Virus record (IMG/VR): IMGVR_UViG_3300047551_003045
Coordinates: 1 to 43,183 of that record
DNA: 43,183 nucleotides
Strand: one strand, 5' to 3'
Source of the DNA: a virus
The notes below the pieces were generated by a model. The model had not been told where the DNA came from. It made no database searches and was given only the letters and a program-made list of their open reading frames with translations. The position numbers and the translations under genes were made by a program. Below are positions 1,249 through 41,446 of this stretch, piece after piece; the stretch's first letter is position 1, and every line of letters starts with the position of its first letter.

Positions 1249-4200
1249 ATGCCAAATAACGATTTCGAATACAAATCAAGCGTGTTTGGCCAAACCCTAC
1301 AAAAGGGCGTGGCATCAAGTATTGATGAAATGCAGGGAATCGTTGAGTGTTTTGTTGCTGGAATCGGAAATAGGGACTCTGTTGGCGACATTGTTGCAAC
1401 TGGGGCGTTCACTAAGAGCCTCCAGCGCCGTAAGCCTCGAGTCGTTTGGGGCCACAACTGGAACGACCCAATCGGCAAAGTATTAGAAATATACGAAGTC
1501 CCAACAACAGACCCACGTCTGCCAATGAAGATGAAAATGGCCGGCATAGGTGGGCTATTTGCAAAAGTACAATTTAATCTTCAATCAGAAAAGGGACGCG
1601 AAGCATTTGCAAGTGTTGCGTTTTTCGGTGAAGAACAAGAGTGGTCAATCGGTTATAAAACGCTCAGGGCTCAATATGACCAGAAATCACAAGCGAATGT
1701 TATTTATGAACTCGAACTATACGAAGTATCCCCAGTTCTGCACGGAGCGAATCAGCTAACTGGAACAATCTCAGTCAAGTCAGACGAGCAGTACCAGCAA
1801 GATGGTGCAGTTGCGATGATGGATGACGAAAAGCCAAATAAATTTGAAATGGAAAAACAACTTGGCGCAATACTTGGCTCCAAAGTATCCCTACTAGATG
1901 TTGGTAATGACGAAGTCACATTCGCTCGTCGTGGAGATGACGGCGCAGTAAAGCGCTATAAGTGTGGCTGGAATCATTCAAACGGCAGATATATGTTCGG
2001 AGCCCCAGAGCCAGTTGCAGCACCAATGCCTAGAGTTGCAATTCCCGAGCCACAGCCAATGATGCAGATGCCACCGAATGACCCACGCAGAATAGTTCGC
2101 CCTCAGCAAATGCCGTCAATGCCAGTTGCCGTAAAGCCGGGAATGGACGGTGTTGTCGTAGTTCCGCTTCCGGCGGTTTCATATGATGAGCAAACAGAAA
2201 AACCGAAAGCAAAACCACTAGATAAAGAGGAAGCAGACCTACGCGATGCGCTTCTAAAAATAGTTAAGCGCCACGGCAAATTCAACGAAGATAGTAAAGG
2301 TGTTTGGGCCGGATACACGCCAGCTGCCGAAAATGAAATTTCCAATATCGGTGTCAAGTGCTCAAATTGTGTCTTCTACCAGGGTGAAGGAAAATGCCAA
2401 ATCATCGATGTCAAGGCAGAAGATGATGGCAGATGCAGATTCGCCGTCATCCCTCCCGGTGTTGTTGGTGGTGATGCAATAGACAAGAAGGAGTATGAAC
2501 TTCTATCCGATGCAGAAGCTGAGGAATACATTGAGGACCTAGAAGTTAAATACCCCGGTGAATTCGTTCTTTCGATGCTCAGAGGGGCAGTTGGCAAGCG
2601 CAAAAAGAAGCGCGTAAAATTCAAGTCACTTTCGGAATTTGACCCTAATCAATATGAGTCTGGAATAGCAAATGAATCATTTTGCATACCAGTACATCCG
2701 CGTGATGCATTCATGGTTAAGCAGCACCTTGACCCAATTTTTGATTACTACATGGCGGAAACCGAAGTAGATATTGACGGAATAATTATTAAGTCTGGAA
2801 TTGACCTCGACCTCGTTGGGGCAATTGATACGGCTTTAGAAAATTTAAAAAAAAAATTCCTAGATGACTCTGACACTGAGGTAAAAGCTCTTGGTAGAAG
2901 AATCGGAAGTTACTTTGGCAGTCGCCTAATCGACAGACCAAATATTCGCAATATTGATACACGCCCTGGTGATAGGCGTCGCCGTGGATTTGATATTAAT
3001 GTTCCCACAGGTGGAATTCCTGGTTTCCGCGACCCTACGGGAAGTGACTTTGACCCAGACCGCGACGGTTGGGTGGATGAAGGAACAACACGCCCTCGAT
3101 TCATCGGGGTTCCTGACGCGAATCTTCCAAACACGGAACGCAGAGCACCAAAACGAGAAGAGAGAACTCCAACAACACGAAGAAGAATGGCGTCTGGCCT
3201 TAATACCTCTCGACATGGATATGGCAAAGACAACGAATCGCGTTATGGAATTTCTAGCGATGAAAAAGCAAAGAGAGAGGCCTTTGATTCGCTTGCGCAG
3301 TCGTGGATAGACAGGGGAAACGGTTGGGTATCTGTTCCAAGATATAACAATGATAATAACCGCTCACCAGAATTTTTACGCGGTCGCGAGCTTGGCTATA
3401 ACCAATCACGGCATGTATGGACTGGCAAGGGCGTTAAAAAGCAGCCAGCAAAATTCAACGAGAAGGCAAAAAGTTCATCTGCATATAACGAGTGGTACTA
3501 CGACTATGTCCGCTCAATGTCGATGTATCTAAGTGGAATTGAGCAGCTTCCAGATAAAGAAAAGAAAAACGACAGTGATTTTTACGACGGTATTGATAAT
3601 GCAATACGTGCAGATGTGTACTCAAAGCGACCAGATACAAATACTTGGGGGGAAAACGAAAAAGACGCATTATCAAGATGGTTGAACGCCTATGGGTTTA
3701 GCGACAGCAGCTCATCTAAGCCGGAAAAAAGACTTTCATCTGGAAAGCTTCCCGGCCTTGATGAGGACTTTGACCCAGATAATCCGTACGGAGAAGAAAA
3801 TGTCCCATATGACGAAAACTCAATGGACCTATATGACCGAATCATTAGGGACTTCCTTGGAACGGAACCGGAGCGTCCAAAAGTTACAAAAATCCCCGCG
3901 CCTGAGAAAAAGCCAGAAGACTATACGGATAGGGATATTTATGAAGAGAGAATGGCTGGCGCGTCCCTCGAACAGATGGCAGAAAAACTTGGAACTACGC
4001 GTGTCGAGATACGCCGTGCCGAGCAAAGACATATGGCCGAAATGCGGCGCTCGCGCACAGAAAATGCTGCTGCGTCTACGGAGAAAAAACTATCTAGCGG
4101 ATTCGAGGCTTTCCTAAATAAACCAGAGAATCAACGAACAGCCAAAGAACGGCTGATGTATGAGGGCCCTCTATACAAATATCGAGATGGACAAATTCTT

Positions 4201-7200
4201 TCATCTGGAAAAGTTGAAGACCAGGAAAAGAATGACGCAAATATTCAGGATATGTATACGAAGATGGGCGAGGCAATTATCGCTTCCCTTCAGGAGATAA
4301 TTGATAATCCGGAAAAACGCGGCAAGTGGGACTTGCCATGGAGAACACCAGAATTCTACGGTCGTAATCCAACAAGAAAGAACAGAATTTACCAAGGCAT
4401 GAACCAGTTGATGCTGTCACATGCTGCATCAAAACGCGACTACAAGACAAACAGGTGGGCCGGAATAACTCAGTGGAGAGAGTTAAAGAAGGGCGTAAAG
4501 CTAAAGAAGGGTGAAGTCGGCGTAAATATTCTTGTTCCATATGATATGCGTGATTCAAATGGCGTCTATATTGGAAAAGGTTTCAAGATTGAAACAGTTT
4601 ATAACGCAGACCAAATGGAAGGCCTGCCAGATTGGGTATACAAGGTTGATGAAGTTGCACAACTCTCAGATGCCGAACGCCTCGCAGATATCGAAAATGT
4701 TGTAAAAGAAATTGGACCAAAATACAGAGAACAGGGCTTCCGCGCTTTTTATTCTCCGGCTGATGACACAATTACAATCCCACCATTTGCCGCCTTCAAG
4801 GACCCGACGGCATTTTATGCAACTATGTTGCATGAAATTATCCACTGGACTGGTTCGCCTGGCAGACTAAATAGAGATAAAAGCGGAAATAGATTTGGCA
4901 ATGAAGGCTATGCATTCGAGGAACTCATTGCGGAAATAGGTTCATCATTTGCAATGGGATTCCTTGGCCTTGAGCCAGAAATACGTGATGACCATATTCA
5001 GTACCTTGCGTCATGGTTGCAGGTTCTCAAGAATGACCCAGGTCAAATAAGAAAAGCGCTTGAGCAGTCGCAGCAGGCTGTTGACTACATCATGAATAAG
5101 TCTGCAACACTTCGTAGACGTGCTGGAGTGCCAGATAACGAAAGAAAGGGCAAAGAGGACTACACGATTGAGGTCCCAATCATTGGAAAAATAACTATTC
5201 CAATTATTAAGCCGAAGAGACCAAAAGAGGGCGATGTCCCGGTCGAACAACCAAAACCAAAGGCGCGTATACGTGTTCGTGGTAGCGGTCCTGGAGCAGT
5301 AAAAACAATTTTAGAAGACTATGAAAATAATCGTCTGTCAAGCGGAATATCTGGATTTGTAATTAAAGACGAAGAGGGGAATTACTACAACCAAATAAAC
5401 CAAAGACTGTCATCTGGTCGTGGTCCAATAGTTGGCGCAAAAGACCCAAATCGAAAAATAGAGAGAACCGAAGGCTCCTTCATGGAGAAGTTCGGAATGA
5501 AATTTGAGCCGACAGATGAACAAAAAGATGTAATGGATGCCGTGGCGCATCTGACAAATAATGAAGAAGGTGGATTGGTTGCTGTTCGAGCTGGGGCTGG
5601 TACTGGTAAAACAACAACTGTCGAACAGTCGGTCATACGAATGGCTAAGGAATCACCCAAATCGAAGTATTACTACATAACTTTTAACAGAAAAAATGCT
5701 GCAGAGGCTCAGAGGAGAATGCCCGATAATACGGGCAGTTCATCCATTAACCAGCTCGCGTATTGGTCGTTGCTCCTTGAGGATAGAGACGCAATTACCC
5801 CGGAGTACAAGGAAAAATTGCGCAAAATTGGAGTTGGACCTGGTGACGAATTTTATGCGGCAGCAAATCCAAAATCAAAAAGAAAGACAGAAGCAGTTGG
5901 ATTTGGTGGCAAAACTGTAGATACAACAGGAAAGAAAAAAGTTGGATTTAGAACGCTTGGATACGTTTCATTTGAAACACAAAGCGGTGGAAAAGACGTA
6001 TCAAAACACTATGACCTCAAAAAACTATATCCAGAAGGAATTACTCACGAAAATGTAAAGCTAGATGACGTTGATTTCGGACTCGTTCTAATTAACGCTC
6101 TTACTAGATACTCACAAAGTGAAGATGATGTTCTTTCAGAAAAACATTTTAAACTACGCCCGCATGAGATAAAAAGAAATGCACAGGGTGGAGTCGACCC
6201 AGCAGAAACAGATTTCAAAGAAATACCAAAAGAATGGGTTGATTTCGCAACAAAAATGTGGGCCGACATTATGGACCCAGAATCAAATGTTCTACCAAAC
6301 TTTGACCAGCAGGTAAAAATTTGGGCCCTGCAACGTCCAAACCTAAGAACAGATGCCGGAATGGTTGGTCATGGAACACGTAAGGTTAAAGATGCACGTT
6401 CTCAGGACAAGAACCTCGAGGTTGGTTCAATTGTGCAAATTGACGGAGAAGATTTTGTTTATACGGGCGGTGGACGCGGTGCCCTGAGAAGAAGATACGC
6501 AACAGAAGAAAATCCGTTAAATGTATTCTTTTTCGACGAAGCTCAAGACGTAAACCCAGTTCTTCTAAAAGTCATTGAAGATAATATTCGTGACAATAAT
6601 CTAGCGACAGTGATGGTTGGAGACCCACGACAATCAATTTATGGATTCCGTGGTTCGACTGACTCGTTCGCAAAACTCGACCCAGATTTTAATTTAACAC
6701 TTACTGATTCATTTAGGTACGGAAAAACAACAGCATTTATTGGAAACCTAATTCTAGGAAGAGGTAATGCTGCCGATAGGGAAAATGGCGTACCGGATGT
6801 AGCAGCGAATTACCAATTATTTGGACGACTACAAGATGTTGTTAGGGCAGACTTTAATCTCGGCACGCTGTCTGGTGCACAATTGGCAAAGAAACTTGAC
6901 TCAATTGAAAAGAAATACGGAATTACAGGTCCTAATGGACAAAAACTTGCCGACATGCCCGAAAAAGAAAGAAATGACCTACTAACAAAAGTCGTCAGCT
7001 ATCTAGCTCCCGAGCGTGAAGGAATTCTATATCGACAGATACCTGCCGATGCAGATGGAACATGGGCATTTATTTCTTACTCAAATAGAAACACGCTCGA
7101 GGAGGCACTGCAGTTCCTATCGCAACACCAAGATAAGACCATTGGCCTACCGGCAGAAAAATACAAAGATATGGTTGAATTCTTGCGTCATTTACTGTGG

Positions 7201-10200
7201 GTTAAAAGACCTACTGGAACACGACCAAGAGAGTCAAAGATTATAGGCAACGTATGGGATGCCGCAGAAATAAATAAACGTGCTAGCCAAAAATCGTCAT
7301 ACGGCCAATTGGCATCAATGATGAAACTTCTTCGGGTGAGAGATGCAAACGGTAATCAGCTTTCCGAAATTGACTGGCTGAACCGTTTGCTTGGTCGAAA
7401 GGACCCAAAGACTGGAGAAATACTAGAACGAGCAAGAATTCGCCCACTTGAAGAGCCGATTGACGTTGACCCATTCAAGAATATAGATGGGACATCATCA
7501 ATTGTTTCTGGTGCAGAGCTAAAGATGCTTGGCGCGCTCAAGGCCGGTAAGGGTGGCGGCGGAAAAGTTGGTGGCTACAAGCTCAATAGAGATAAAAGAT
7601 TTAATATCGTTCCGAACCCATCAGGGCAATCTCCAAGCAGAGAAATATTCTGGAAACTTGATACAGAGGGTCTAAAAGATGGGGAATCATGGGAGAACGG
7701 TGTAATTATTTCTGGAGAAGGAATAATTGACTCGTATGAGTTTAAAGATGCTGCTGGAAAAATTCAGCGTACTGGGGATAAAAACGGTGAAAAGCCTATA
7801 GCCCGTCGCAGACTTGAGACATTTATAAATGACCTTGGCTTGGGTGACAAAATCACAATCGCCCCAAAGTATGTTCCAAGAAAAGCTGGTTCTTCTAATG
7901 CGCCATCATATGACGCAATACGCATAAAGGGCTCCACCCCAGATGAAACTGGGACCCTTCTCAGTCTTGTTGGTAAATTCATAACAGATACAACCAATGA
8001 CCCAGAGGTTGACGCCTCATTCCTTACTACACACGCAGCAAAAGGTCTTGAGTTCGACAACGTAATACTTGGCAACGACTTCTTCCAGCCAGAATTTGAT
8101 AATGCCGGAAATGTTGTTACAGATATCGATAGGGAAATGGAAAATCTCATATACGTTGCGGCAACACGAGCAAAGAGAAGAATCCAGATGTCAGATGCGA
8201 CGGCATGGATTATTGATAGAAAGAAAAATAAGCGTGGGTTCGAGTTTGTCGAAAAGAATCTAAGCGCCGAACAGCAAGCGCCATCAGGATTCTGGAATCC
8301 ATTCGATGAATCAGCAGAACAGGTATATCCAGACGGCGCACGTGAACTTGCAAGCGGTAGGGCGTTAAGCGTAAGCGCGCCAGCAAAAGCAACGAGAAAA
8401 CTTGGCAATGCCCCAGAGGGAAGAGGGACAAACCGCCAAGAACGTAGGCAGAGGCTGCGTAGTGGCGCAACTCCGAATACTGACGGATTCGCATTTCTTG
8501 ATGAAGACACGATGAAACAGGATTTGCAAAAATTCGCAACTGGAAACTTTAATAATAGACCAGTTGATAGACATATTGGTCCTGACTACAAGAGATTTAC
8601 GCCAGACCCAATTGAGCTGGAAGAGCGTCGTAAGCATGAGGCATTGATTGAGCGCTGGGGCAAAGAGGGTCTTGGGTGGCAAACTGCCGGATGGACACAG
8701 GCAGACAAGTACAAGTCGCCCGACTATTTGCGTGGTCGTGAGCTTGGAATAAATCAAGCACGAGTTAAATGGCTTGGAGATGCCCAAGAGCGACCACGTG
8801 ACTTTAACGAAAAACAAAAAGCAAGTGCGACATATAGAAGCTGGTTCTACTCCTATGTTCGACAACTTGGCACATATCTTGATGCAAACCGTCGTGAAGA
8901 TGATAAATACTGGGAGGGCGTTGAGGATGGTGCCCGCCAGTCAATAGCAACACACATGCCAATGACCGATACATGGATGCGGGAAGATGTTGACAACATG
9001 GTCGATTGGATGAGGCAATATGGCTTTGGCCCAAGCGGAGAAAAAATTAAAAAAGAGACTGTTAAGCCACAAAGACTTCTTTCTTCCGGAGCGGTAAGGG
9101 CAAGACCAACAGCAAGCGGAATGCCAGCTAAGCGCGAACGAAGAATGGCAAGCGGAGCTGTTTATTCACAAAACGTAAGCGCAACAAATCTTGCAGCAAT
9201 TCGTGGCTCTAAGTCTGGCAGTGATTATGAATTTGCTAGAAGATTCTGGGATGGTTTCCGTAAGCGGGGAATCACACTTGACACGTCGAGCAAGGCCCCA
9301 TCAGCACAGGAACGAAGAAGGCAAATTAATGCCGGTCTCGATAAGGTATCTGGGGCAATGAGGAATAGGCCAGAAATTAAAATTGGCAGTGTTTCCCAAA
9401 ATGCACGATTAGATAATCCAGACTCAACAACATGGATGCTCCCTGTTTCCAAGCTGCGTGAATCAATAAGAATTCCAACTGAATTCGATGTGGCAAGAAA
9501 TCCAGACAATACGGTAAGAGATGTAAATTGGACAAAGTCTGAGCCAATCAGCATCTCTGATTTGGCAAAGATAATGAACCTATCGCCGCAAGATAAGAAA
9601 AAATTAACTAGCGACGATGCCGGAATATCTCACGACTCTGTTAGGTACCTAATTGCGGAACTTGGTAACCAGCCAGAATTTGCTGGTTGGAGACTATTTT
9701 CACCAGTAACAGATGATGAACCAGGAAATGCAAGAATGTCGCAGGCACAAAGATTTGCTGAAAATCTTGGTAGAGCAAATATGCGGGATAGATTTATTAT
9801 CGAAGCATTTGGGAAAGACGCGTATCCATTTTGGTACGACGGTTCAGAAAAAGAAATAATAGACGCAGACGAATATTCGTCTCTTGGAGAAGTTGACCCA
9901 GCGGCAAAGTTTAATGCTGTTGGTCGTTTTTCAAGAAACCCAGATGATGCCTCAGGTGAAGCAATGGCTGAATCCGACTTAATTTACGAGGGAATGCCAG
10001 ATGTGTCAACTCGCAGGGCTGAGGAAATTGCGAAAACCGAGGAAGCACCACAAATAACCGACAAAACAAGTAGAAAAGACTTTGAATTAAAGAAATTGCT
10101 AGACCATCTTGGACTCTCCGAGGACGAGCGCGGTATGCAGGAATTGAATACGAGACTACAAAAAGCATTTGGCGTTCAAGATAGCGACTTATTTAATCCT

Positions 10201-10686
10201 CGACAGGCCTCAAGCTGGCGTTCCGGTGGAGTCCCAACGGCATATATCAAGGAAATGATACGCACAGGGATGATTCCTGATGCAAAAACAGTGTGGAACG
10301 ATAATAATGTTGGGCAGAAACTAGACGACGAGCTGCTTTCTTCAAGAAATAACGTGTTTGAGGCAGCAATTGAATTTTTAGGAAAAACCCAAGGTATGTC
10401 AGCAGGCAATACCAAACAGAACAAAGAATATATTCTTGGAGCAAAGAACCTTGCAATGGTGCTTCCGCAAGCCGCTAGAACAAAAGGTAAATCATTTTCC
10501 AAGAAGAAGGGCGATGAACCGAGATTCTCCCGCCAAGAACTGCAGGGAATAGTCAATCGTTTTAATGAAATATTTAATACGAACCATACGATTGACGATA
10601 TTTTTAGCCGCGAGCAACTCGAAACTGCGCGAAAGCGGTTAGAGGAAGAGGGTCGCACAGTTTTTGGTCGTTCGTCAAAAGACTAA
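1249..10686 (+). CDS. Giant modular head protein: prohead protease + ArdC-like antirestriction peptidase + UvrD/Rep-like helicase (putative polyprotein)
   Basis: A 3145-residue protein with AAAGGA six bases before the ATG. Residues 1-175 are an HK97-type (U35) prohead protease: WGHNW with H69, EWSIGY with S133, and the ELYEVSPVLHGAN signature (E159). Then come a Pro-rich linker, a Cys-rich patch near 369-400 (CSNC, later two more Cys), a 77-residue Asp/Arg-rich domain (546-622), a repeated domain (675-817), an HTH-like segment near 910-940, an ArdC-like metallopeptidase (about 988-1300), a complete SF1A helicase (about 1420-2320), the second copy of the repeated domain (2462-2593) and a 500-residue unrecognised C-terminus. 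(R/K)(L/M)(S/A)SG-type pentapeptides sit at or near most module borders (residues 646, 828, 947, 983, 1362, 1386, 2402, 2609, 2632). Ordinary prohead proteases are about 200-250 residues, so this is an extreme fusion. I infer a self-cleaved, capsid-packaged polyprotein; cleavage is not shown. No frameshift or stop interrupts it. Confidence 0.85.
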   Translation: MPNNDFEYKSSVFGQTLQKGVASSIDEMQGIVECFVAGIGNRDSVGDIVATGAFTKSLQRRKPRVVWGHNWNDPIGKVLEIYEVPTTDPRLPMKMKMAGIGGLFAKVQFNLQSEKGREAFASVAFFGEEQEWSIGYKTLRAQYDQKSQANVIYELELYEVSPVLHGANQLTGTISVKSDEQYQQDGAVAMMDDEKPNKFEMEKQLGAILGSKVSLLDVGNDEVTFARRGDDGAVKRYKCGWNHSNGRYMFGAPEPVAAPMPRVAIPEPQPMMQMPPNDPRRIVRPQQMPSMPVAVKPGMDGVVVVPLPAVSYDEQTEKPKAKPLDKEEADLRDALLKIVKRHGKFNEDSKGVWAGYTPAAENEISNIGVKCSNCVFYQGEGKCQIIDVKAEDDGRCRFAVIPPGVVGGDAIDKKEYELLSDAEAEEYIEDLEVKYPGEFVLSMLRGAVGKRKKKRVKFKSLSEFDPNQYESGIANESFCIPVHPRDAFMVKQHLDPIFDYYMAETEVDIDGIIIKSGIDLDLVGAIDTALENLKKKFLDDSDTEVKALGRRIGSYFGSRLIDRPNIRNIDTRPGDRRRRGFDINVPTGGIPGFRDPTGSDFDPDRDGWVDEGTTRPRFIGVPDANLPNTERRAPKREERTPTTRRRMASGLNTSRHGYGKDNESRYGISSDEKAKREAFDSLAQSWIDRGNGWVSVPRYNNDNNRSPEFLRGRELGYNQSRHVWTGKGVKKQPAKFNEKAKSSSAYNEWYYDYVRSMSMYLSGIEQLPDKEKKNDSDFYDGIDNAIRADVYSKRPDTNTWGENEKDALSRWLNAYGFSDSSSSKPEKRLSSGKLPGLDEDFDPDNPYGEENVPYDENSMDLYDRIIRDFLGTEPERPKVTKIPAPEKKPEDYTDRDIYEERMAGASLEQMAEKLGTTRVEIRRAEQRHMAEMRRSRTENAAASTEKKLSSGFEAFLNKPENQRTAKERLMYEGPLYKYRDGQILSSGKVEDQEKNDANIQDMYTKMGEAIIASLQEIIDNPEKRGKWDLPWRTPEFYGRNPTRKNRIYQGMNQLMLSHAASKRDYKTNRWAGITQWRELKKGVKLKKGEVGVNILVPYDMRDSNGVYIGKGFKIETVYNADQMEGLPDWVYKVDEVAQLSDAERLADIENVVKEIGPKYREQGFRAFYSPADDTITIPPFAAFKDPTAFYATMLHEIIHWTGSPGRLNRDKSGNRFGNEGYAFEELIAEIGSSFAMGFLGLEPEIRDDHIQYLASWLQVLKNDPGQIRKALEQSQQAVDYIMNKSATLRRRAGVPDNERKGKEDYTIEVPIIGKITIPIIKPKRPKEGDVPVEQPKPKARIRVRGSGPGAVKTILEDYENNRLSSGISGFVIKDEEGNYYNQINQRLSSGRGPIVGAKDPNRKIERTEGSFMEKFGMKFEPTDEQKDVMDAVAHLTNNEEGGLVAVRAGAGTGKTTTVEQSVIRMAKESPKSKYYYITFNRKNAAEAQRRMPDNTGSSSINQLAYWSLLLEDRDAITPEYKEKLRKIGVGPGDEFYAAANPKSKRKTEAVGFGGKTVDTTGKKKVGFRTLGYVSFETQSGGKDVSKHYDLKKLYPEGITHENVKLDDVDFGLVLINALTRYSQSEDDVLSEKHFKLRPHEIKRNAQGGVDPAETDFKEIPKEWVDFATKMWADIMDPESNVLPNFDQQVKIWALQRPNLRTDAGMVGHGTRKVKDARSQDKNLEVGSIVQIDGEDFVYTGGGRGALRRRYATEENPLNVFFFDEAQDVNPVLLKVIEDNIRDNNLATVMVGDPRQSIYGFRGSTDSFAKLDPDFNLTLTDSFRYGKTTAFIGNLILGRGNAADRENGVPDVAANYQLFGRLQDVVRADFNLGTLSGAQLAKKLDSIEKKYGITGPNGQKLADMPEKERNDLLTKVVSYLAPEREGILYRQIPADADGTWAFISYSNRNTLEEALQFLSQHQDKTIGLPAEKYKDMVEFLRHLLWVKRPTGTRPRESKIIGNVWDAAEINKRASQKSSYGQLASMMKLLRVRDANGNQLSEIDWLNRLLGRKDPKTGEILERARIRPLEEPIDVDPFKNIDGTSSIVSGAELKMLGALKAGKGGGGKVGGYKLNRDKRFNIVPNPSGQSPSREIFWKLDTEGLKDGESWENGVIISGEGIIDSYEFKDAAGKIQRTGDKNGEKPIARRRLETFINDLGLGDKITIAPKYVPRKAGSSNAPSYDAIRIKGSTPDETGTLLSLVGKFITDTTNDPEVDASFLTTHAAKGLEFDNVILGNDFFQPEFDNAGNVVTDIDREMENLIYVAATRAKRRIQMSDATAWIIDRKKNKRGFEFVEKNLSAEQQAPSGFWNPFDESAEQVYPDGARELASGRALSVSAPAKATRKLGNAPEGRGTNRQERRQRLRSGATPNTDGFAFLDEDTMKQDLQKFATGNFNNRPVDRHIGPDYKRFTPDPIELEERRKHEALIERWGKEGLGWQTAGWTQADKYKSPDYLRGRELGINQARVKWLGDAQERPRDFNEKQKASATYRSWFYSYVRQLGTYLDANRREDDKYWEGVEDGARQSIATHMPMTDTWMREDVDNMVDWMRQYGFGPSGEKIKKETVKPQRLLSSGAVRARPTASGMPAKRERRMASGAVYSQNVSATNLAAIRGSKSGSDYEFARRFWDGFRKRGITLDTSSKAPSAQERRRQINAGLDKVSGAMRNRPEIKIGSVSQNARLDNPDSTTWMLPVSKLRESIRIPTEFDVARNPDNTVRDVNWTKSEPISISDLAKIMNLSPQDKKKLTSDDAGISHDSVRYLIAELGNQPEFAGWRLFSPVTDDEPGNARMSQAQRFAENLGRANMRDRFIIEAFGKDAYPFWYDGSEKEIIDADEYSSLGEVDPAAKFNAVGRFSRNPDDASGEAMAESDLIYEGMPDVSTRRAEEIAKTEEAPQITDKTSRKDFELKKLLDHLGLSEDERGMQELNTRLQKAFGVQDSDLFNPRQASSWRSGGVPTAYIKEMIRTGMIPDAKTVWNDNNVGQKLDDELLSSRNNVFEAAIEFLGKTQGMSAGNTKQNKEYILGAKNLAMVLPQAARTKGKSFSKKKGDEPRFSRQELQGIVNRFNEIFNTNHTIDDIFSREQLETARKRLEEEGRTVFGRSSKD
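2884..3114 (+). repeat. Asp/Arg-rich 77-residue domain, copy 1
   Basis: Encodes residues 546-622 of the giant protein. Key features are KALGRR at the start, DTRPGDRRRRGF, the Gly/Pro turn VPTGGIPGFRDPTG and an EF-hand/dockerin-like acidic loop DFDPDRDGWVDEG, ending RPRFIGVP. A near-identical copy lies at 41534-41767 in another large gene. In both places it is followed within about 30 residues by an RR(M/V)ASG pentapeptide. Confidence 0.9.
3271..3699 (+). repeat. Internal domain repeat, copy 1 (LRGRELG domain)
   Basis: Encodes residues 675-817. Shared with copy 2 at 8632-9027: SP(E/D)(F/Y)LRGRELG, F-N-E-K at the next turn, the aromatic patch W(Y/F)Y.YVR, and an ending resembling W..(Q/A)YGF. 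It is bounded by RMASG before it and RLSSG after it. I do not recognise the fold. Confidence 0.85.
4210..5331 (+). other. ArdC-like antirestriction/zincin metallopeptidase module inside the giant protein
   Basis: Lies between ILSSG (ends 4209) and RLSSG (starts 5332). The first half has the ArdC N-terminal ssDNA-binding signature: NRIYQGMNQLMLSHAA, a WAGITQWRELKKGVKLKKGE stretch and VNILVPY. The second half has the zincin motif HEIIH (residues 1195-1199), then WTGSPGRLNR and a downstream EELIAEIGSSF (about 1224-1234) that supplies the third ligand. ArdC proteins protect incoming DNA from restriction; metal ligands appear intact. A virion-delivered antirestriction role is inferred from the fusion to the prohead protease. 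Confidence 0.8.
5419..8340 (+). other. UvrD/Rep-type SF1 DNA helicase module inside the giant protein
   Basis: All diagnostic SF1A motifs are present in order: a Q-like segment FEPTDEQKDVM, Walker A AGAGTGKTTT (residues 1448-1457), motif II FFDEAQD (DEAQD 1763-1767), motif III GDPRQSIYGFRGS (from 1791), motif IV DSFRYG, motif V THAAKGLEFD (2261-2270) and motif VI LIYVAATRAKR (2300-2310). The set is complete, so the module is probably an active 3'-5' helicase or translocase. It lies between an RLSSG site (5404-5418) and the weaker ELASG site (8344-8358), so cleavage would release it as a protein of about 970 residues. Confidence 0.88.
8632..9027 (+). repeat. Internal domain repeat, copy 2 (LRGRELG domain)
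   Basis: Encodes residues 2462-2593, a diverged paralogue of the segment at 3271-3699 with the same SPDYLRGRELG core and MRQYGF ending. It is bounded by RLRSG upstream and RLLSSG downstream, mirroring copy 1. The two copies differ widely at DNA level, indicating an old duplication. Confidence 0.85.
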
Positions 10687-12483: not shown

Positions 12484-15400
12484 ATGACGGGTGACTTTAT
12501 CGACGTAAATCGAGTCATAGTCTCAGAGCGCCTGCTTGTACCAGTGGGCCTAGCTGTTAATGCAAACGAAAAAGCGCTTGCCTTCAAGCGCTCAATAAGC
12601 GAATCTGCAAGACAGGAAAGATTAATCGCAGATATATCAGTTAAAGCTCTTGGAGAAAACCGACAGACTTTCGAAAATACAGATAACCGCAAAAGAGAAT
12701 TTAGCGGCGATACTCGCCCTGGTGTTGAGAGCGATGAATTTGGGCATCGATGGGAAACTGCTGGCTCATGGGAAAAGGGTAAGAGATTAGTAATTTCTCC
12801 GTCATACGAAAGCAAAAACGGTCTTGATACAAACCCAAATATTGGGTGGATTGAGCCGACAACGCGAAACTTTCGAAACTTTGATGAGATGTTGGCCGAA
12901 CTTGGCAAAAAACCAATAATCCAACTTACAAAATATAAAGTAAACCCAAAAACAGATGACGTAGACGAACAGTCCGCAAAAGTTGTCGATTCATTTGCCA
13001 TTACGCCTGGGCTAACCTTCGCTGAGCGCCAAGCCGAACTTGCAAAACAACGTGGGACAAATGGACAAATCCAAGAAAAGGTTTTACCCGGAAAACCACT
13101 ATCCGAGCGTGTTCCTGGTGGAAGCCTAATAGCGAGAGCAGCTGGGCGATTCGGAATTATTCGCGATGAACTGAATAAATTTAGATGCCCTCCAGGAACT
13201 CCAGCTGCAAACCAGTTCACTGACATGTTTGGAACCAATTGTTTTGGATTTAGCGCCTCACGTTTTGCACGATTCACTGCGCGCAAAGCGCAGGAAATGC
13301 TCAAAACAGAAGAGGGTGGTGGCTTTCTAAATAATGTTCGTTCATTTCTAAATTTTGTTTATAAAAATGAATGGACTCCAAATGTTCCTTGGGCACCAGT
13401 CAGGATGGGACGACATCCATACTTTGATTCAGTTACCGGTGAGCGCATTGACGCACCAGACTGGCGTACGGTTGACGTAGCGCCTGGTCAACGCCTATTT
13501 AGAAATGGTCTAATTAATTCCCAAGACTTTCATATGCGCATGGACGATAATGTCAATTCGCTATATACATCGCTTGGGGTTGACAGAAGCGAGGCTGCAC
13601 GAGCCGTAAACGCTGACGTAGTTGAGGCATTTGAAGCACTTAACAAACTGTATGAAACAACTGGTGGTCGCGATGGCTGGGATGTCAATATTGCAAACGT
13701 TTCTGGGCTTGGCGACAACTCAAGACTGCGACCAGAAGAGGTAACGAGATATATAACTGCAAGATTATCCAAACTTCCTAATTGGAGTGCATTGTCAAAA
13801 GCAGAACAAGAGAGAATGATAGCTAGCGACACCAAACGGTATTACGAAACAGAACGCGCCTACTTTGAAACAGCTCTTCATTTATTTAAAGAACAGCCTT
13901 CTGTGGCGAAGTTTTTTGGCCGTATTGAATACAACTTCTTTACAAATGACGAAGCTGGAACATCTGTATATGGGGACATGCGCCCTGGTCGTGGTGGAAT
14001 TCGCGGAGTGATGCATGTAAACCTAGAAAAAATTCTTACTAATCAAGAATCAATGCTTCCAGACCTTATGGCAAATGAGAGATTAGCCATCTCTGCTCTT
14101 GGGGCGATAAGTGATTCAGCTGCCAAGAGTGAAGTAGCAGATTTTCTAATTAATTCAGAATACGCTGCGCGTCACATGGCCGGTCTAGTTGATGGTCCAA
14201 AAACATTCACCAGACATATTGCTTTTCACGAGTTTTCTCATGGAATTCAATCACAAGCATTTATTAAAAGCACGCTCAGAAAAGCAATTGAGGGTGGAGG
14301 CAAACTAGAGATTCCACAATACAGATTGAATAAAAAAACTGGCGTTAGTGAATTTGTTGGTATGCGAGTCGTCAAGGTTGACTTTGACCCAGAATCTGGT
14401 GGACTGCTAACAAATCTGACTGGCAGCGACATCATGAATCTAATGATGGACGTAAATGATGGGCTCGACCTGAAGCATATGAGCGATGCTCTCTCTCGCT
14501 CTGAGGTTGCGGCATTTCTTGCCGGCAAATACCCGACCGACTACACAAAGGGCAGCGAAATATGGGGCCTAGAGGTCGGCGCGGAATTATGGGCCTTACG
14601 TGAACAAGGATTGATTTTTGGCGATGACGTAGATGCTGCTCTCGAATGGATGGATGATGTTGATAGGCGTGCGGCGTCTTCGGAAAGAGCTGAACTCGAT
14701 GCAATTGATAGAGCTGTTGAAGAAACTTTGACTTTTAGACCACCATCTGAAGTCACGCCAGATGAAACAGAAACAGTTGAAGACATGGTGGATGTAGATG
14801 CTCGAGAGGCTGGCGAGCGCAGAAGGAAACTAAAAGAATTTAAAGAGTTCTTTAGCTCTCTTTCTGAAGAAGAGATGCTGTCACAAGCTGCAATGGTCAG
14901 AACACAGCAAATGGACATGCGTAGAGAAGTTAAGAGAATGGAAGACGAATTAAGAGGTCTCGTAAAACTAGATGGAATGAGCGATGATGAATTCAATGTT
15001 TTGAAAAAAGCCAAAGAACGAGACATTGAACGAGGCAAAAAGGTACTTGATTATTACGAAAAAATGTACAACGATGCCCGTACTACATGGCGCAAAAAAT
15101 ATGGCGTTGGGTCTGGGGCAACGAAAGAAATGGAACGTTTTGACGCTGCTGTCGGGAGAGTAAGAATTGAATCTGGAATTCTCACTGATGAAGAAGTTGC
15201 GGCTTTTGCCAAAGAAGCTCGATTCGAAGAAGTAAAAGCATCAATAGAAAAATTTACAGACAAGGAAGTTCTTCGTCGGGCGGCAGATATCCACCTCCTT
15301 GTGAGAGGAAAACCAGAAGATTCACCAGAAGTACAAGAATTGATGCGTGAGCATGATGCATTAAGGACTGAATTCATCAAGAGAGCTATGGGGTCAGACG

Positions 15401-18400
15401 GAGAAATTACACCAGCAAAAGCAAGCAGAGATTTTTTTAGAGCCGTCGAAAAACTGCTCGAACCAAAAGAGCCAGCAAAAGTAAAGAAATTCAAGTCCCA
15501 GAAAGACGCTGCATTATTTGGACAAAAAGAGCGTGCACGCCTAAGAAGAAAAATAACCAAAGAACAAGCAGCAGCAATTGTTGAAATGGAAGATTTCTCC
15601 ACTCCGCAAATTGCCCAAATGTTTGACCAAGGTGCTCAAAGCGCCGTAGGTAGAGCAATAAACGCAAGAAATGCCAGAATGAAGAGACTTGGTCTAAAAA
15701 TAGACCCAACTTCAGCTGATGAAGGCTCGCTTGAGGACCAGGTTAAAAACATAATAATTCCGACAATGGAATCTATTGATTCATCATCAATAAATGAGCC
15801 ATTCGCAATTGAGGCGGTAATAGAGCTTCCATCAAAGCGCGCAGCTGATACAAAAGTCGGCAAAGAAATTAATGTTGACTCATTTACTGCCGGTCGCGTA
15901 ACGACATTGAGACAAAAGCCGCTAACAGCAGATAAGAAGAAAAGCAGAATTATTATCAATGTACGCGAGGGCGATAGAGGGGTTTTCCCCAAACCGGCAG
16001 AAGGAAAAGAACAGGCATTTGTTATTCCGCCTGGGTCTATCAGGATTATTGGCAAAGATAAAGACGGCACAATAAGAGCAGAAATATCAAGACAAAAGGA
16101 TACTGTCGAGGTTCTTGACTCGCTTGTTGATTCCATTAAGTCTGGTACGGATGACCGAATTTGGCGCGATGGAAATGCAAAGAAAATCCGGGCTGTTGCA
16201 GACAAGGCAATAGTTGACAGAGAAAAACGTGGTGTCGAACGCCCATATTTGCGCATGGACGATGCGTCAATGACATCTGAAATTAATACAGAAGTGATTG
16301 ACTCATTAGCGAATTCTGGCTCATCAATCGGTGAGACTTTTGACGTACTCTCTGATGCTCAAAAAGCGGAAAAGAAAATACGCGAAACAAAGAGGGCTGC
16401 CAGCAAAGCAAAAGCGCCTAAATCAACAAAACGAAAATTATCATCTGGGCAAGAATTCCTTGGCGAGATAGAGACTCGTGACGAAAGAAGAAAGACGAGA
16501 GTGAATGAGCTGACATCAAATCTTTCTGACTTGCGCTCAATTCTCTCTGGCAACGGGTCAAAAGATATGCAAGATATCTCCGAGGACATGCTCGACCCAG
16601 CTGTCGCTGAAAAAATAAGAACATTAAATAATGAACAAATTTCTCAGGCAATCGAAAATGCTGCATTCAAAATGCATACATCATTCGATAGGCGTGTCCG
16701 CGTAAGAATGTACGAATCCGAACTTGATGACCTTGCAAAAAACGGCAAAGTACGCGCACCGTCTGGCTCGGTTCCAGAAATAGGAGAATTTTCCACACGG
16801 AGAGCAGAGCGTTTGGCAAGAATGACACCAGAGCAACGCGCATCACGGCTCTCCTCTGGACGAGTTGGTACAAAATCTGAACTCGAAGAGCGAATGTCCA
16901 GGGAATCCGAGGTTGCGGCGAGGGCAGCCTCAATATTTGATTCGGTGATTAGCGCTGGGAAAAATATTGATGATATGTCAGATGATGAAATTACGAAAAC
17001 ATTTGGAACTTCAATAAAGCGTTCGCCAAGAAAAGCAATAAGTTTAAAACATCAAAATACATATGTTGCAGAAGACGTTCCATCGGCACTCGCACTTATG
17101 GCACTAGGGCACCACGTAAGTGTTGAAAACCAAAACCTAACCCTGACGACGACGGCACAGCTTCAACTAGAAAAACAAGTTACAAAAGTAGCAAGACTAC
17201 ATATTAGGGATGGAAATGAAAGATGGCTCAAATTCAAAAAAGCATATGAAGAGCAATTATTAAAGAGTAATCCGCTTGCAGACATAAATGATAAGCAAGT
17301 AATTACTCAAATGAAAAAAGATTATATAGATGGATTTCAGGCAGACCTATGTGCGCTCTATAAAGCAAATGAAAATCTTCTTTGTTCTGGGCATATCGGT
17401 ATCGATAGAGAAAAAATGCCACAAACCAATGGTCGCACTAAGGGCGCGGATACCGTCGCGATACGTATGTTCAAAGATGGAAAAGCAAAGGGAAAGTGGG
17501 TATCAACATTTGAAACACAATTTAAAGCCGTAGAAGACGAGCTTAATTTTGCCATCGCAGATGGTGCGAGTGATGAAATAAGAAAAGATTTAGAAAATCG
17601 CATGGCATCGCTTAAGACATCTATGGATGAATATGATGCAATTAAAAAACGTCATCCAACGCTTGGTAAAACAATAGATTCTCCATTATCAGAAGATGAA
17701 AAACAGTGGATGTATAGCAATACAGACTGGAATGACACAGAGGTAAATCTAGAGGATAATTTCATTGCATTTCTTAATAAAACCCTAACTACAATTGACC
17801 CACAAAACGGTCCAGCTGTTAGAAAGAGAACAGTAAATCCAAATGAGTATGCGCCATCACAGCAACAATTAGTTGCATCAAAAGTAGCAAAAATGGCCCA
17901 GGATATTACTAAGCCAGCAATCGCAATAGCAGAAAAATTAGAAGCGCAAGGATTGAAGCGCGGAACAAAAGAATTTAGAGATGCATACCTAGAAGAAATA
18001 AATCAGCAATGGTTTATGAGTCCAATTCTTGCAACAATGGACAAATATATTCTCGACGGACATCATCGTTGGGCTGGAATAAATATTGCCAATAATTCAT
18101 TGGATGCAGATTTAAATATCCCACTCAACGTTAATGAGGTACAAACTGACATTGTTGAAGGTTTAACGCTCGGTCGAGCCTTTCAAGAGGTGTACGGGAT
18201 AAAAGAAGCTCGCCTCGGCGCAGAAAATAGATGGAAAGTGGGCGATATAACGGAAATATCAGATGACGAGATTTCCTCAGTAGCGAAGAATCTAGAGCAA
18301 AATATTTCAGCAATGGCTGATGAGCTTTATGAACGTGGGGACTTTATACAAGTTGGAGCTGTTGGGTATAAAGCGAATCCAGATTACAAAAAAGCAGTAC

Positions 18401-20016
18401 AAACACGCCGCTCGCTCAGAGCGGCACAACGCTCACTCGCACGTGATATTGACACTATTTCTGGAAGAACTGCCGCAAGACAAACATGGTTCAGTTCCGG
18501 TGCCACAGACAGAAGATTCGTTGGCAATCTACGTCAAAGAGATGCCAAGAAACTAGCTAATGCTAGGGCTGTTTCTTCGCTGAGCAAGGCCGGTGTCAGT
18601 AAGCAACAGAGGGGGGATGTGGTAAATGCATTATCGGCGTTCAGCGAGTTCTTTAATGGTGGAACATCAAATGAAATATCCCGCGTAGCCAATACAGTTG
18701 CGGCGTCTGGGAGAGTCGACCTAGCCGAAATCGCAATTAATGAACTGCAATCACGTGGATTGATTGATAATCAAACAGCAAAACTATCAATTCAACAACT
18801 TGGTAACTATCCAGGACGCAGGATGTCTCTTCCAGATAGAAAAAAGATGGAAAATGTATTTACAGAAGCAATGTCTGCATATATGGGTCGAAGGTCGATA
18901 AATGAAGATGGCCCATCCTTCAGAACCTCCGGCACTCTGGCCAGAATAAATAGAGGAAGAGTAAAAACGCCAAATATTGATGATTCGAATAATTCAGTTC
19001 GAGCTGGAATTGCACCAAATGAACTTATGGCGGAATATTACTCGCGAATTGGACTATCAAAAGATATTGATACAAATATAAAACCAGTATCTGGATATCT
19101 AGTTAATAAATCACATATTGAAGCAAAACGTAAGTCAGTTATAAACAAAGGAAATGGCAATGTAACATCAAGTTCGATATTTGAAATTGACGATTCGGAC
19201 ATTGTTGGTGACAGTCTTACGGCACAAGGTGATATAGAAATTGTTCTCAAACCAGAAGTTGCAAATAGAACGTCTTACGGTCTTGGTGATTCTCTAAATT
19301 CTGCACATAGACCAGTATCGATGAATTCAGTGAATCGCGACGATATTGTTGATGCATATATTAATTCTGATGGCCATAAGCGGAATAGAAATAACCTTGA
19401 TTCATCACTTGCCCTTCTTTCAGCATATTCTGCAAATGACTACAGCGTTGTTAACGGCAGAAGAAATAAATCTGGGCAATTTATTCGCCCGGCAGCAAAC
19501 TCGGAATGGGATGGTTCACGTGCGCCATTCGAAGCGCAAATACTTGGCGGATTTGATGCAGACGAAATAGAACAGGTTAATTATCCGCTTTCAAAAATAA
19601 GGGCAATGTCAATGTCTGAGGACATATCTGACGTAGTAGACAATAAATCAATTGCACAGAAATTACGTTCTGCCGGATTTAGCGAAGAAGAAATACAGTA
19701 CTTTTACTCAGTTAATTCTGGTGAAAAACTAAATACACAAAGTATGTCAATGCTTCGCGACTATCGCGCTGCTAAAAAAGTACAAAGCAGATTAGCTGAA
19801 GCTGGTTTCGCAAATGTCAAGTTTGTAGACAAGTTGGGCACAAATATAGAGGACCCGAGAACTTACTCGCGTGCTGCGGAAATATCCGACAATGTAGAGG
19901 ACGTACTTAGGGGGAACATAAATAGGGAGATTATCGCTGCTGCTAGAAAACTGCTTGACGAAATGAGAAAAGAAAAGGTGCCAAACTTAGTTACTAGAAG
20001 GGGGTCAATGCTGTGA
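12484..20016 (+). CDS. Giant 2510-residue head-module protein with zincin and ParB-like domains (putative polyprotein)
   Basis: Start chosen at the ATG with AGGGA seven bases upstream, 20 bases after the previous stop. Seen in order: an RCPPG...QFTD...C motif (C235, C253), a zincin metallopeptidase core HEFSH (residues 582-586) with a downstream GAELWA (E701) as probable third ligand, a long charged helical region (about 780-1000), a segment ending EQAFVIPPGSIRIIGKD (near 1180) that resembles the end of ADP-ribosyltransferase folds, KLSSG (1318-1322) and RLSSG (1455-1459) motifs, a ParB/sulfiredoxin-like DKYILDGHHRWAG (1853-1865), a TWFSSG variant (about 2001-2006) and an AQILGGFDADEIEQV stretch near the end. 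The shared pentapeptide links it to the protease polyprotein upstream. It overlaps the next gene by four bases (GTGA). I infer a packaged, multi-domain protein; the ADP-ribosyltransferase resemblance is weak. Confidence 0.7.
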   Translation: MTGDFIDVNRVIVSERLLVPVGLAVNANEKALAFKRSISESARQERLIADISVKALGENRQTFENTDNRKREFSGDTRPGVESDEFGHRWETAGSWEKGKRLVISPSYESKNGLDTNPNIGWIEPTTRNFRNFDEMLAELGKKPIIQLTKYKVNPKTDDVDEQSAKVVDSFAITPGLTFAERQAELAKQRGTNGQIQEKVLPGKPLSERVPGGSLIARAAGRFGIIRDELNKFRCPPGTPAANQFTDMFGTNCFGFSASRFARFTARKAQEMLKTEEGGGFLNNVRSFLNFVYKNEWTPNVPWAPVRMGRHPYFDSVTGERIDAPDWRTVDVAPGQRLFRNGLINSQDFHMRMDDNVNSLYTSLGVDRSEAARAVNADVVEAFEALNKLYETTGGRDGWDVNIANVSGLGDNSRLRPEEVTRYITARLSKLPNWSALSKAEQERMIASDTKRYYETERAYFETALHLFKEQPSVAKFFGRIEYNFFTNDEAGTSVYGDMRPGRGGIRGVMHVNLEKILTNQESMLPDLMANERLAISALGAISDSAAKSEVADFLINSEYAARHMAGLVDGPKTFTRHIAFHEFSHGIQSQAFIKSTLRKAIEGGGKLEIPQYRLNKKTGVSEFVGMRVVKVDFDPESGGLLTNLTGSDIMNLMMDVNDGLDLKHMSDALSRSEVAAFLAGKYPTDYTKGSEIWGLEVGAELWALREQGLIFGDDVDAALEWMDDVDRRAASSERAELDAIDRAVEETLTFRPPSEVTPDETETVEDMVDVDAREAGERRRKLKEFKEFFSSLSEEEMLSQAAMVRTQQMDMRREVKRMEDELRGLVKLDGMSDDEFNVLKKAKERDIERGKKVLDYYEKMYNDARTTWRKKYGVGSGATKEMERFDAAVGRVRIESGILTDEEVAAFAKEARFEEVKASIEKFTDKEVLRRAADIHLLVRGKPEDSPEVQELMREHDALRTEFIKRAMGSDGEITPAKASRDFFRAVEKLLEPKEPAKVKKFKSQKDAALFGQKERARLRRKITKEQAAAIVEMEDFSTPQIAQMFDQGAQSAVGRAINARNARMKRLGLKIDPTSADEGSLEDQVKNIIIPTMESIDSSSINEPFAIEAVIELPSKRAADTKVGKEINVDSFTAGRVTTLRQKPLTADKKKSRIIINVREGDRGVFPKPAEGKEQAFVIPPGSIRIIGKDKDGTIRAEISRQKDTVEVLDSLVDSIKSGTDDRIWRDGNAKKIRAVADKAIVDREKRGVERPYLRMDDASMTSEINTEVIDSLANSGSSIGETFDVLSDAQKAEKKIRETKRAASKAKAPKSTKRKLSSGQEFLGEIETRDERRKTRVNELTSNLSDLRSILSGNGSKDMQDISEDMLDPAVAEKIRTLNNEQISQAIENAAFKMHTSFDRRVRVRMYESELDDLAKNGKVRAPSGSVPEIGEFSTRRAERLARMTPEQRASRLSSGRVGTKSELEERMSRESEVAARAASIFDSVISAGKNIDDMSDDEITKTFGTSIKRSPRKAISLKHQNTYVAEDVPSALALMALGHHVSVENQNLTLTTTAQLQLEKQVTKVARLHIRDGNERWLKFKKAYEEQLLKSNPLADINDKQVITQMKKDYIDGFQADLCALYKANENLLCSGHIGIDREKMPQTNGRTKGADTVAIRMFKDGKAKGKWVSTFETQFKAVEDELNFAIADGASDEIRKDLENRMASLKTSMDEYDAIKKRHPTLGKTIDSPLSEDEKQWMYSNTDWNDTEVNLEDNFIAFLNKTLTTIDPQNGPAVRKRTVNPNEYAPSQQQLVASKVAKMAQDITKPAIAIAEKLEAQGLKRGTKEFRDAYLEEINQQWFMSPILATMDKYILDGHHRWAGINIANNSLDADLNIPLNVNEVQTDIVEGLTLGRAFQEVYGIKEARLGAENRWKVGDITEISDDEISSVAKNLEQNISAMADELYERGDFIQVGAVGYKANPDYKKAVQTRRSLRAAQRSLARDIDTISGRTAARQTWFSSGATDRRFVGNLRQRDAKKLANARAVSSLSKAGVSKQQRGDVVNALSAFSEFFNGGTSNEISRVANTVAASGRVDLAEIAINELQSRGLIDNQTAKLSIQQLGNYPGRRMSLPDRKKMENVFTEAMSAYMGRRSINEDGPSFRTSGTLARINRGRVKTPNIDDSNNSVRAGIAPNELMAEYYSRIGLSKDIDTNIKPVSGYLVNKSHIEAKRKSVINKGNGNVTSSSIFEIDDSDIVGDSLTAQGDIEIVLKPEVANRTSYGLGDSLNSAHRPVSMNSVNRDDIVDAYINSDGHKRNRNNLDSSLALLSAYSANDYSVVNGRRNKSGQFIRPAANSEWDGSRAPFEAQILGGFDADEIEQVNYPLSKIRAMSMSEDISDVVDNKSIAQKLRSAGFSEEEIQYFYSVNSGEKLNTQSMSMLRDYRAAKKVQSRLAEAGFANVKFVDKLGTNIEDPRTYSRAAEISDNVEDVLRGNINREIIAAARKLLDEMRKEKVPNLVTRRGSML

Positions 20017-24750: not shown

Positions 24751-26085
24751 ATGTCACAAGACAAAGCAAGAGTCGAAGAGCTCCAGGGAGCGCTTCGCCA
24801 GAAGATGGCAGACAACAAAGCCATCGCTGACTCATTCAAGGTTGAGGACGGCACAGTAGTCGTTTCAACGGAACAAAAGACGGCGTTCGACAAGAACATG
24901 AGAGACATCAAGGAAATCAAGTCTCTTCTGTCGGACCTTCAGACAATCGATGAGGTTTCTGAGTGGTCAAGCCAGCCAGCAAGAGAAGCAGTTGCACAGT
25001 CATACGCTGCAGCCGCCGCTGACCTCTCGCAGCTGTCATCACGCGAAATCAAGTCAATTGGCCAGCTGTTCACCGAGTCTGCCGAGTTCAAGTCACTCAA
25101 TGGTGGCAAGAATGGTGCAAACATGGCAGCTCCATGGCAGGTCGCCGCTTCGCTGACAACGTACAACGTCAAGGACGTTTACTCAGCACTCCCATCAGGC
25201 ACCCCTGGTTCGTTTGGAACAATCCAGCGTGACCCAATGGTGCTCCCTCCAACACGCACCAAGAGAGTTCGCGACCTGTTCCCAGTTCGCAGAACATCTG
25301 CTGCTGTTATCGAGTACTTCCGTCAGCTAGGTTTCACGACCCTTCAGGCTGGTCACGGTGTCAACTCGGCATCATCAGTTGCTGAGCGTTCAGGTGGAGC
25401 CTTCGGTGTAAAACCGCAGTCATCGTTTGCCTTCGTTGGTGAGCAAGCTCCGGTCCGCACACTAGCCCACTGGGAAGCTGCACACCGTAACGTTCTCGCC
25501 GATGAGCCGCAGTTGCGTTCAATCATCGACAACGAACTCATGTACGGTCTGCGCCTCCTCGAGGATTCACAGATTCTGAATGGTGACGGAACAGGCGAAA
25601 ACCTGCTCGGCGTTCTTCAGACTCCAAACATCCAGGAGTACGCATGGTCAGATGGTGCAACATCACCAGTCCCAGACACCAAGGCTGATGCACTTCGCCG
25701 TGCGGCTACCCTTTCATTCCTTGCTTACTACGAGCCATCAGGCATCGTGTTGCACCCGAATGACTGGGAAGACATCGAGCTAACGAAGGACTCAAATGGC
25801 CAGTACCTCATTGCGGTTTCAGTTGCAATGGGTGGCGAGCCAAAGGTCTGGAGAATGCCGGTTGTCGACACGCCAGCAATCGCAGAAGGCACAGCACTCG
25901 TCGGTGCATTCGGTACCGGTGCACAGCTGTACGACCGCGAAGAGGCAAGCATCCGAATTTCGGAACAGCACTCAGACTTCTTCGTCCGTAACGCAATCGT
26001 CATCCTGGCCGAGCAGCGTCTCGCCCTTGCTGTCAAGCGTCCAGAGGCATTCGTCAAGGTTGACTTCGATGCGGAGCCAAGCTGA
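24751..26085 (+). CDS. Major capsid protein, HK97 fold
   Basis: 444 residues, GGAG six bases before the ATG. The first 100 residues are helical and charged, like the delta/scaffold region removed from HK97-type capsid proteins during maturation. The mature part has family landmarks: RVRDLFPVRRTSAAVIEYFR, VGEQAPVRTLAHWEAA, an E-loop/spine-helix region IIDNELMYGLRLLEDSQIL and the hallmark NGDGTGENLLGVLQ. The C-terminus (RNAIVILAEQRLALAVKRPEAFVKV) is the typical final strand. Codon use differs from the neighbours: many C-ending codons (ctc, gac, gtc, aac) and almost no aga, as expected of the most expressed gene. It has its own promoter, structured leader and terminator. No (R/K)LSSG site was found at the expected delta-domain border. 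Confidence 0.92.
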   Translation: MSQDKARVEELQGALRQKMADNKAIADSFKVEDGTVVVSTEQKTAFDKNMRDIKEIKSLLSDLQTIDEVSEWSSQPAREAVAQSYAAAAADLSQLSSREIKSIGQLFTESAEFKSLNGGKNGANMAAPWQVAASLTTYNVKDVYSALPSGTPGSFGTIQRDPMVLPPTRTKRVRDLFPVRRTSAAVIEYFRQLGFTTLQAGHGVNSASSVAERSGGAFGVKPQSSFAFVGEQAPVRTLAHWEAAHRNVLADEPQLRSIIDNELMYGLRLLEDSQILNGDGTGENLLGVLQTPNIQEYAWSDGATSPVPDTKADALRRAATLSFLAYYEPSGIVLHPNDWEDIELTKDSNGQYLIAVSVAMGGEPKVWRMPVVDTPAIAEGTALVGAFGTGAQLYDREEASIRISEQHSDFFVRNAIVILAEQRLALAVKRPEAFVKVDFDAEPS

Positions 26086-31507: not shown

Positions 31508-31538
31508 ATCCGTAGCTGCCTCAATGACGGGGAATGGA

Positions 31539-31609: not shown

Positions 31610-31635
31610 GATAATTTTAATATTAGTCTTTTAGT

Positions 31636-31716: not shown

Positions 31717-31721
31717 GGCGT

Positions 31722-41439: not shown

Positions 41440-41446
41440 TTTTGTG

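Follow-up and report, generated by a model that had tools for sequence, protein, structure and literature searches.

The giant ORF and its question

Why should a phage place its prohead protease at the front of a protein of more than 3000 residues, and why should one short peptide recur along that protein? The locus that raises the question is in IMG/VR virus record IMGVR_UViG_3300047551_003045, a viral metagenome record of 43,183 bases that is used whole and is called the window here. Since related contigs reach 134-170 kb, the window is probably a fragment of a phage genome of about 150 kb. Its open reading frame (ORF) of 3145 amino acids (aa), giant 1, had been described in the original prediction as a polyprotein with its own prohead protease, and the intact frame and a Pfam match to the S78 family confirm the ORF and its protease domain. 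We consider it rather probable that giant 1 and two further giants are cargo polyproteins, and that the recurrent peptide, here called the word, is cut by the S78 prohead protease both in cis and in trans.

Giant 1 sits among virion structural genes, with a portal-like ORF on one side and the capsid gene on the other. Its S78 domain scores 40.9 bits against a PF04586 cut-off of 21, and all its Pfam domains score above the curated cut-off. The combination of S78, ArdcN, MPTase-PolyVal and UvrD helicase is an instance of a polyvalent-protein trait, namely several unrelated enzymatic or DNA-binding domains per polypeptide. Giants of related contigs also hold RNase_T, GNAT, KTSC, Zeta toxin, NUDIX and DnaJ domains.

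A recurrent word in giant 1 and its neighbours

In its strict form, [RK][LM][SA]SG, the word occurs six times in giant 1 (residues 646, 828, 947, 1362, 1386 and 2632), where composition-preserving shuffling gives an expectation of 0.03 (P ≤ 2e-4, the lowest value that the test can give). Three looser copies (ILSSG at 983, ELASG at 2366 and LLSSG at 2610) bring the total to nine, the expectation for [LMF][SA]SG being 0.27. The six strict 15-mers all differ as DNA, and the recurrence is therefore one of the peptide; this bears out the earlier argument that varying codons point to a selected peptide, and distinct 15-mers are found at 20 of 20 sites in contig G017 and 13 of 13 in G022. A DNA-level repeat as the source of the word was rejected, since codons vary between copies. 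As for the pattern first proposed, the six copies are real, but the basic first position is found in some genomes only and the core is [LFM][SA]SG. The word had also been reported from a single ORF; giant 1 stands, but two more giant ORFs in the window share the word.

Seven of the nine sites are kept in two homologues (from relatives G001 and L006), those at 646 and 2610 being out of register, and the alignment of giant 1 homologues retains the core although many flanking stretches diverge. In an 865-residue structural model, five of the six modelled sites lie in segments with a predicted local distance difference test (pLDDT) score below 50, as do 40% of all residues. HK97 is cut at K103/S104, in an unstructured stretch (PMC10275583).

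The word is not confined to this record. At least 544 loci matched a search with the protease alignment; 80 were kept, 29 of these being non-redundant. Among the matches listed, all 21 non-redundant protease ORFs longer than 1000 aa have three or more [LMF][SA]SG sites. We read 15 long contigs, whole or mostly. Twelve of them have a fused protease, in ORFs of 2489-4804 aa, and their giants carry 1.5-3.8 such sites per 1000 aa, compared with 0.09-0.43 for all other ORFs; the word is about 5-40 times denser in two to four giants close to the capsid genes than it is in the remainder of these contigs. Large tape-measure-like proteins encoded on the minus strand, used as controls, have 0-4 [LMF][SA]SG each, slightly above shuffling, which indicates that a low background of the word exists. 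Two occurrences elsewhere in the window, RRLASG in ORF 20512-21159 and LVSSG in ORF 21152-23185, were put down to chance; the homologues in G001 have no counterpart.

With modules that are duplicated and shuffled, and linkers rich in S, G and R, one might ask whether the words are scars, or linkers of low complexity, that domain duplication and recombination left behind and that were inherited without any reader. We regard this as very improbable: codon variation among copies already refutes it for most sites, the core outlasts many diverged flanks, words are rare in the remaining genome, and unrelated positions match within one genome.

Sites fall at module borders

In 12 giants with Pfam domains, all 125 sites lie outside the domain spans, where 27 would be expected within them, and 43 of 74 domain edges have a site no further than 80 aa away (expectation 18.6). 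For this test the helicase halves were merged manually to give a single span; Pfam accounts for only a part of the giants. The word thus separates modules, as had been proposed, and in homologues it recurs, conserved, at module borders. The regular placement also proposed did not hold, as the sites track borders and not even spacing.

The same is seen where modules differ between genomes. By inspection, the NUDIX, HTH, DnaJ and Zeta-toxin domains of a 3462-aa giant in G019 are each enclosed by two successive ISG sites. The window and G009 have the ArdC-zincin pair near the N terminus, G011 and G016 have it at the C terminus, and in all four a site stands shortly upstream of the pair. An extra repeated domain, absent from G001 and L006, lies between sites 2366 and 2632 of the window's giant 1. 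Depending on the genome, it is LSSG, FSSG, VSGKM/ITGYM or STRS that bounds the homologues of two modules of giant 2, M1 and M2, and a few homologues have their nearest upstream site at a distance. In G022, M2 is present twice, each copy being bounded by STRS, and no interior site was found in M1 or M2 in any genome compared. Paired sites are separated by gaps of 22-36 aa. Two traits of viral polyproteins are present in these proteins, an embedded protease and recognition-type sites at module borders.

Cutting is the best-fitting function, because modules are flanked on both sides and because the short gaps between paired sites have the appearance of excised spacers. The words could instead stay uncut and act as docking motifs for the inner capsid, scaffold, portal or a packaging factor, threading or holding the giants lengthwise. 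Short linear motifs in flexible linkers suit docking equally well; however, docking requires neither border placement nor the two-sided flanking of duplicated or moved modules, and spacer-like gaps resemble excision, so that we find this alternative unlikely.

Genome-specific dialects

The word is largely uniform within a phage and varies between phages, with R-LSSG, G-LSSG, S-LSSG and RFSSG forms. The residue before the core is R at 19 of 19 sites in G017, G at 22 of 27 in G023 and S at 19 of 24 in G010, F replaces L at most sites in G012 and G018, and G007 has mixed variants. Agreement of the pre-core residue within genomes is 0.53, against 0.29 with shuffled labels, in a test that ignores kinship among genomes and compares, per genome, sites at differing, mostly non-homologous positions. 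More distant genomes have unrelated words: ISGRM(G) in G019 (ISGRM: 13 copies in giants, 0.007 expected, none elsewhere), ITGxM/VSGxM in G013, and STRS in G022 (35 copies in giants, 0.45 expected, two elsewhere). A further, tentative word is G[LF][AS]SR, with about four copies in a protease-fused ORF of 2690 aa (L228, 9947-18019). This contig, the sole match in genome collections, belongs to a marine metagenome-assembled genome from the Eastern Tropical North Pacific (ETNP) labelled Phycisphaerae, and is probably a binned phage contig. As a separate observation, large ORFs of G012 (loci L134-L141) include a large protein with a very long TGxTG repeat region (126 matches counted).

A word that stands at the borders of several proteins, is uniform per genome, varies between lineages and is written in varying codons points to a trans-acting reader, one for each phage. 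Recognition in trans also follows from the presence of sites on several separate giants and from the three genomes (G013, G019 and G022) in which the protease is a short separate ORF.

The prohead protease as candidate reader

The S78 prohead protease would be the natural reader, because it is encoded in the gene cluster of the giants and is usually part of one of these polypeptides; because it is found in 19 of 20 contigs (in 14 of them within open frames of 2510-4807 aa), including one in whose four scanned giants no zincin was detected; and because phiKZ-like prohead proteases cut injected head proteins at phage-variable motifs. In giants of 3145-4804 aa the domain lies between residues 28 and 201, and in all contigs it is 68-87% identical to that of the window over the matched region. 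His69 and Ser133, invariant in 13 homologues and also in 8 diverse sequences, are by analogy the predicted catalytic residues.

Several observations weigh against processing of packaged giants by this protease. The first six PDB matches of the protease model are all herpesvirus proteases, and they are weak (best E 0.03; mean pLDDT 60). The S78 domains of the window and of the STRS phage G022 are 83% identical over the matched stretch, and few otherwise invariant S78 positions change between words, a small shift for words so unlike. The expected cut region of the capsid protein (SALPSGTPGSFG) is identical in LSSG and ISGRM genomes. The LSSG word is absent from the isolated S78-bearing relatives GMA6, DalanDe, Gray, Cantare and Gilgamesh, and a search of DalanDe and Gilgamesh for any repeated word found none that was convincing. 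Finally, packaging of the giants is suggested by their gene neighbours only. The independence of the capsid cut region from the word and the conservation of the S78 domain also speak for the docking alternative.

Some lines of evidence were considered and discarded. The capsid cut site cannot serve as proof of a common specificity, for ALPSG lies in the expected region, yet it is there in ISGRM genomes too. Protease residues that track the word (e.g. K56, which is E or G in the three non-LSSG sequences) gave few candidates from too few sequences. The protease tree was not retained as evidence of covariation, as the split of LSSG from the other words is weakly supported (78/96) and shared descent explains it equally.

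The near constancy of the S78 domain while the word changes also suits a different cutter, be it the zincin modules, some other phage peptidase or a protease of the host, acting before, during or after injection. MPTase-PolyVal is present in giant 1 of the scanned LSSG genomes, and zincins of this kind have been proposed to free the domains of polyvalent proteins (Iyer et al. 2017, PMC5512222). However, scans of four STRS-rich giants of G022 did not detect the zincin family and gave only a weak match to a putative metallopeptidase family (DUF6782, E 0.003), leaving the zincin unsupported as a general cutter, and a host protease hardly explains dialects that are uniform within a phage and unlike between phages. 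We therefore hold another enzyme to be quite unlikely, and virion-cargo processing by the prohead protease, as predicted here, is the best reading.

A proposed model for cargo processing

With the prohead protease as the reader, one may propose the following order of events. The three giants, expressed late, would be carried in the virion as cargo, each a string of enzyme modules (ArdC/zincin, helicases, exonuclease and others) destined to accompany the DNA. A tag at the N terminus or in the interior may direct giants 1 and 3 to the prohead. A short recognition word would stand between modules, and while the head matures the S78 protease, itself the first module of giant 1, would cut the words both in cis and in trans. 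Such cutting would remove the tag and turn the modules into individual proteins of a size that can pass out through the portal. When the recognition of a lineage shifts, all its sites would shift together, giving rise to genome-specific dialects.

The tag of this model is a domain present in two copies in the window, one internal to giant 1 and one at the N terminus of giant 3. The two are 76% identical, and R[VM]ASG follows both. In the 154-kb relative G001, giant 3 has 2205 aa, the same tag at its start and seven xLSSG sites, and in seven relatives the earliest site of giant 3 lies at residue 103-138. An N-terminal tag followed by a site resembles a capsid-targeting propeptide, and the domain may have such a targeting role. 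A comparison of the tag region with isolated phages gave no match. The tag domain contains a DPDRDGWVDEG stretch, which by eye is similar to a calcium-binding loop.

In its broadest form the proposal is that a widespread group of tailed phages makes most of its injected proteins as several giant polyproteins with one private code per phage, read in trans by the prohead protease, that the code drifts at all sites together, and that modules behave as cassettes lying between words and are acquired, lost, relocated and duplicated as such; we would give this even chances. If true, tailed phages encode and process injected cargo in an RNA-virus-like manner. The word would then be a parsing key that gives module borders in giants devoid of recognisable domains, and new effectors could be picked as site-to-site cassettes. 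The dialects would offer a natural protease-substrate series for the study of how a protease and dozens of sites change jointly.

Features of the window

Table 1. Position of giants, domains, sites and capsid gene in the window
Feature	Coordinates	Strand	Basis or remark
Giant 1, predicted cargo polyprotein, 3145 aa, N-terminal prohead protease	1249..10686	+	ORF without internal stop
S78 prohead protease domain, residues 31-177	1339..1779	+	Pfam PF04586, E 3e-10
Tag domain copy 1, internal to giant 1 (residues ~544-638), then site 646	2878..3162	+	Identity to copy 2
Site RMASG, residue 646	3184..3198	+	Out of register in G001/L006, with P[FL]SSG nearby there
Site RLSSG, residue 828	3730..3744	+	Motif search, homologue alignment
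Site KLSSG, residue 947	4087..4101	+	Motif search, homologue alignment
Looser site ILSSG, residue 983	4195..4209	+	Motif search, homologue alignment
ArdC-N domain (ArdcN), residues 1001-1096	4249..4536	+	Pfam, E 9e-13
Zincin MPTase-PolyVal domain, residues 1147-1270	4687..5058	+	Pfam, E 7e-39
Site RLSSG, residue 1362	5332..5346	+	Motif search, homologue alignment
Site RLSSG, residue 1386	5404..5418	+	Motif search, homologue alignment
UvrD-like superfamily 1 (SF1) helicase module, residues ~1423-2315	5515..8193	+	Pfam UvrD-helicase (E 4e-17), AAA_19, UvrD_C (2258-2315)
Looser site ELASG, residue 2366	8344..8358	+	Homologues read ILSSG
Looser site LLSSG, residue 2610	9076..9090	+	Site and preceding repeated domain missing in G001/L006
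Site RMASG, residue 2632	9142..9156	+	Motif search, homologue alignment
Giant 2, 2510-aa neighbour, same word, without Pfam match	12484..20016	+	ORF, motif and Pfam scan
Site KLSSG, giant 2 residue 1318, start of module M1	16435..16449	+	Motif search, module comparison
Site RLSSG, giant 2 residue 1455, start of module M2	16846..16860	+	Motif search, module comparison
Major capsid protein, expected maturation-cut region KDVYSALPSGTPGSFG	24751..26085	+	Pfam PF05065, E 3e-41; alignment
Giant 3, truncated by contig end, 580 aa seen	41444..43183	+	2205-5254 aa in relatives
Tag domain copy 2, giant 3 N terminus	41528..41797	+	Sequence comparison
Site RVASG, directly after giant 3 tag	41798..41812	+	Motif search

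Other genes of the window deserve brief mention. ORF 23934-24593 has cysteine-containing DUF3721 repeats, a family also present in giants of G019 and G022, and CP-G-FTD-C segments that by eye are akin to these repeats are seen in giant 2 and in ORF 21152-23185. DUF6321 is a gene of its own in the window (26191-26973); in G013 and G019 (L143, L197) it is joined to the protease ORF, after the protease. On the minus strand, ORFs at 33533-36257 and 31535-34296 are by appearance genes of nucleotide metabolism (ThyX-like and ribonucleotide-reductase-like), and lie beside seven tRNA genes.

Comparison with known systems

Polyvalent proteins are an established class in phages and conjugative elements, have been likened to viral polyproteins, and were proposed to release their domains through embedded peptidases (PMC5512222). 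The giants resemble them in being large and multi-domain, in lying beside virion genes and in containing ArdC-N, zincin MPTase and helicase domains. They differ in the place of the assemblin-like peptidase, which does not define the class and which, if present in polyvalent proteins, is stated to lie always at the C terminus (PMC5512222); here it is N-terminal. The main text of that paper, searched for terms relating to cleavage sites and linkers, yielded neither a recurrent word between domains nor a dialect specific to a genome. In the open-access literature on phage polyproteins with a prohead protease it is the only real precursor found, and neither an N-terminal prohead protease nor a punctuation code was found described there. 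A lineage-wide N-terminal assemblin-like protease, a word shared by several giants and dialects are likewise not found in the literature searched, and the punctuation code has a real chance of being a new principle.

In SPN3US and phiKZ, the injected head ejection proteins are substrates of the prohead protease, which cuts them at a short, phage-variable motif (AXE, SXE) (PMC5694885, PMC10052503). As with the word described here, the short cut motif varies between related phages; unlike here, the proteins are encoded by separate genes, most cuts remove an N-terminal propeptide, the protease has a standalone gene, and there is no multi-module polyprotein. The internal proteins and Alt of phage T4 have an N-terminal capsid-targeting piece followed by a protease site (PMC5694885). 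In T4 these propeptides are of 10-20 residues on small proteins, whereas the tag considered here, with its presumed targeting role, has about 90 aa on proteins of 2000-5000 aa.

The capsid maturation protease of Gordonia phage DalanDe, gp27, is an S78 domain within a 1633-aa protein adjoining the capsid gene, as here, but it lies in the C-terminal third and not at the N terminus, and the protein has no LSSG-like word. The assemblin precursor of herpesvirus UL26/UL80 has an N-terminal assemblin protease acting in cis, with its own sites. pp220 of African swine fever virus (ASFV), a double-stranded DNA virus, is an inner-shell polyprotein cut to products (PMC10308890), and its protease is unrelated. 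These two animal-virus systems yield scaffold or structural products, whereas the giants are strings of DNA-handling enzymes.
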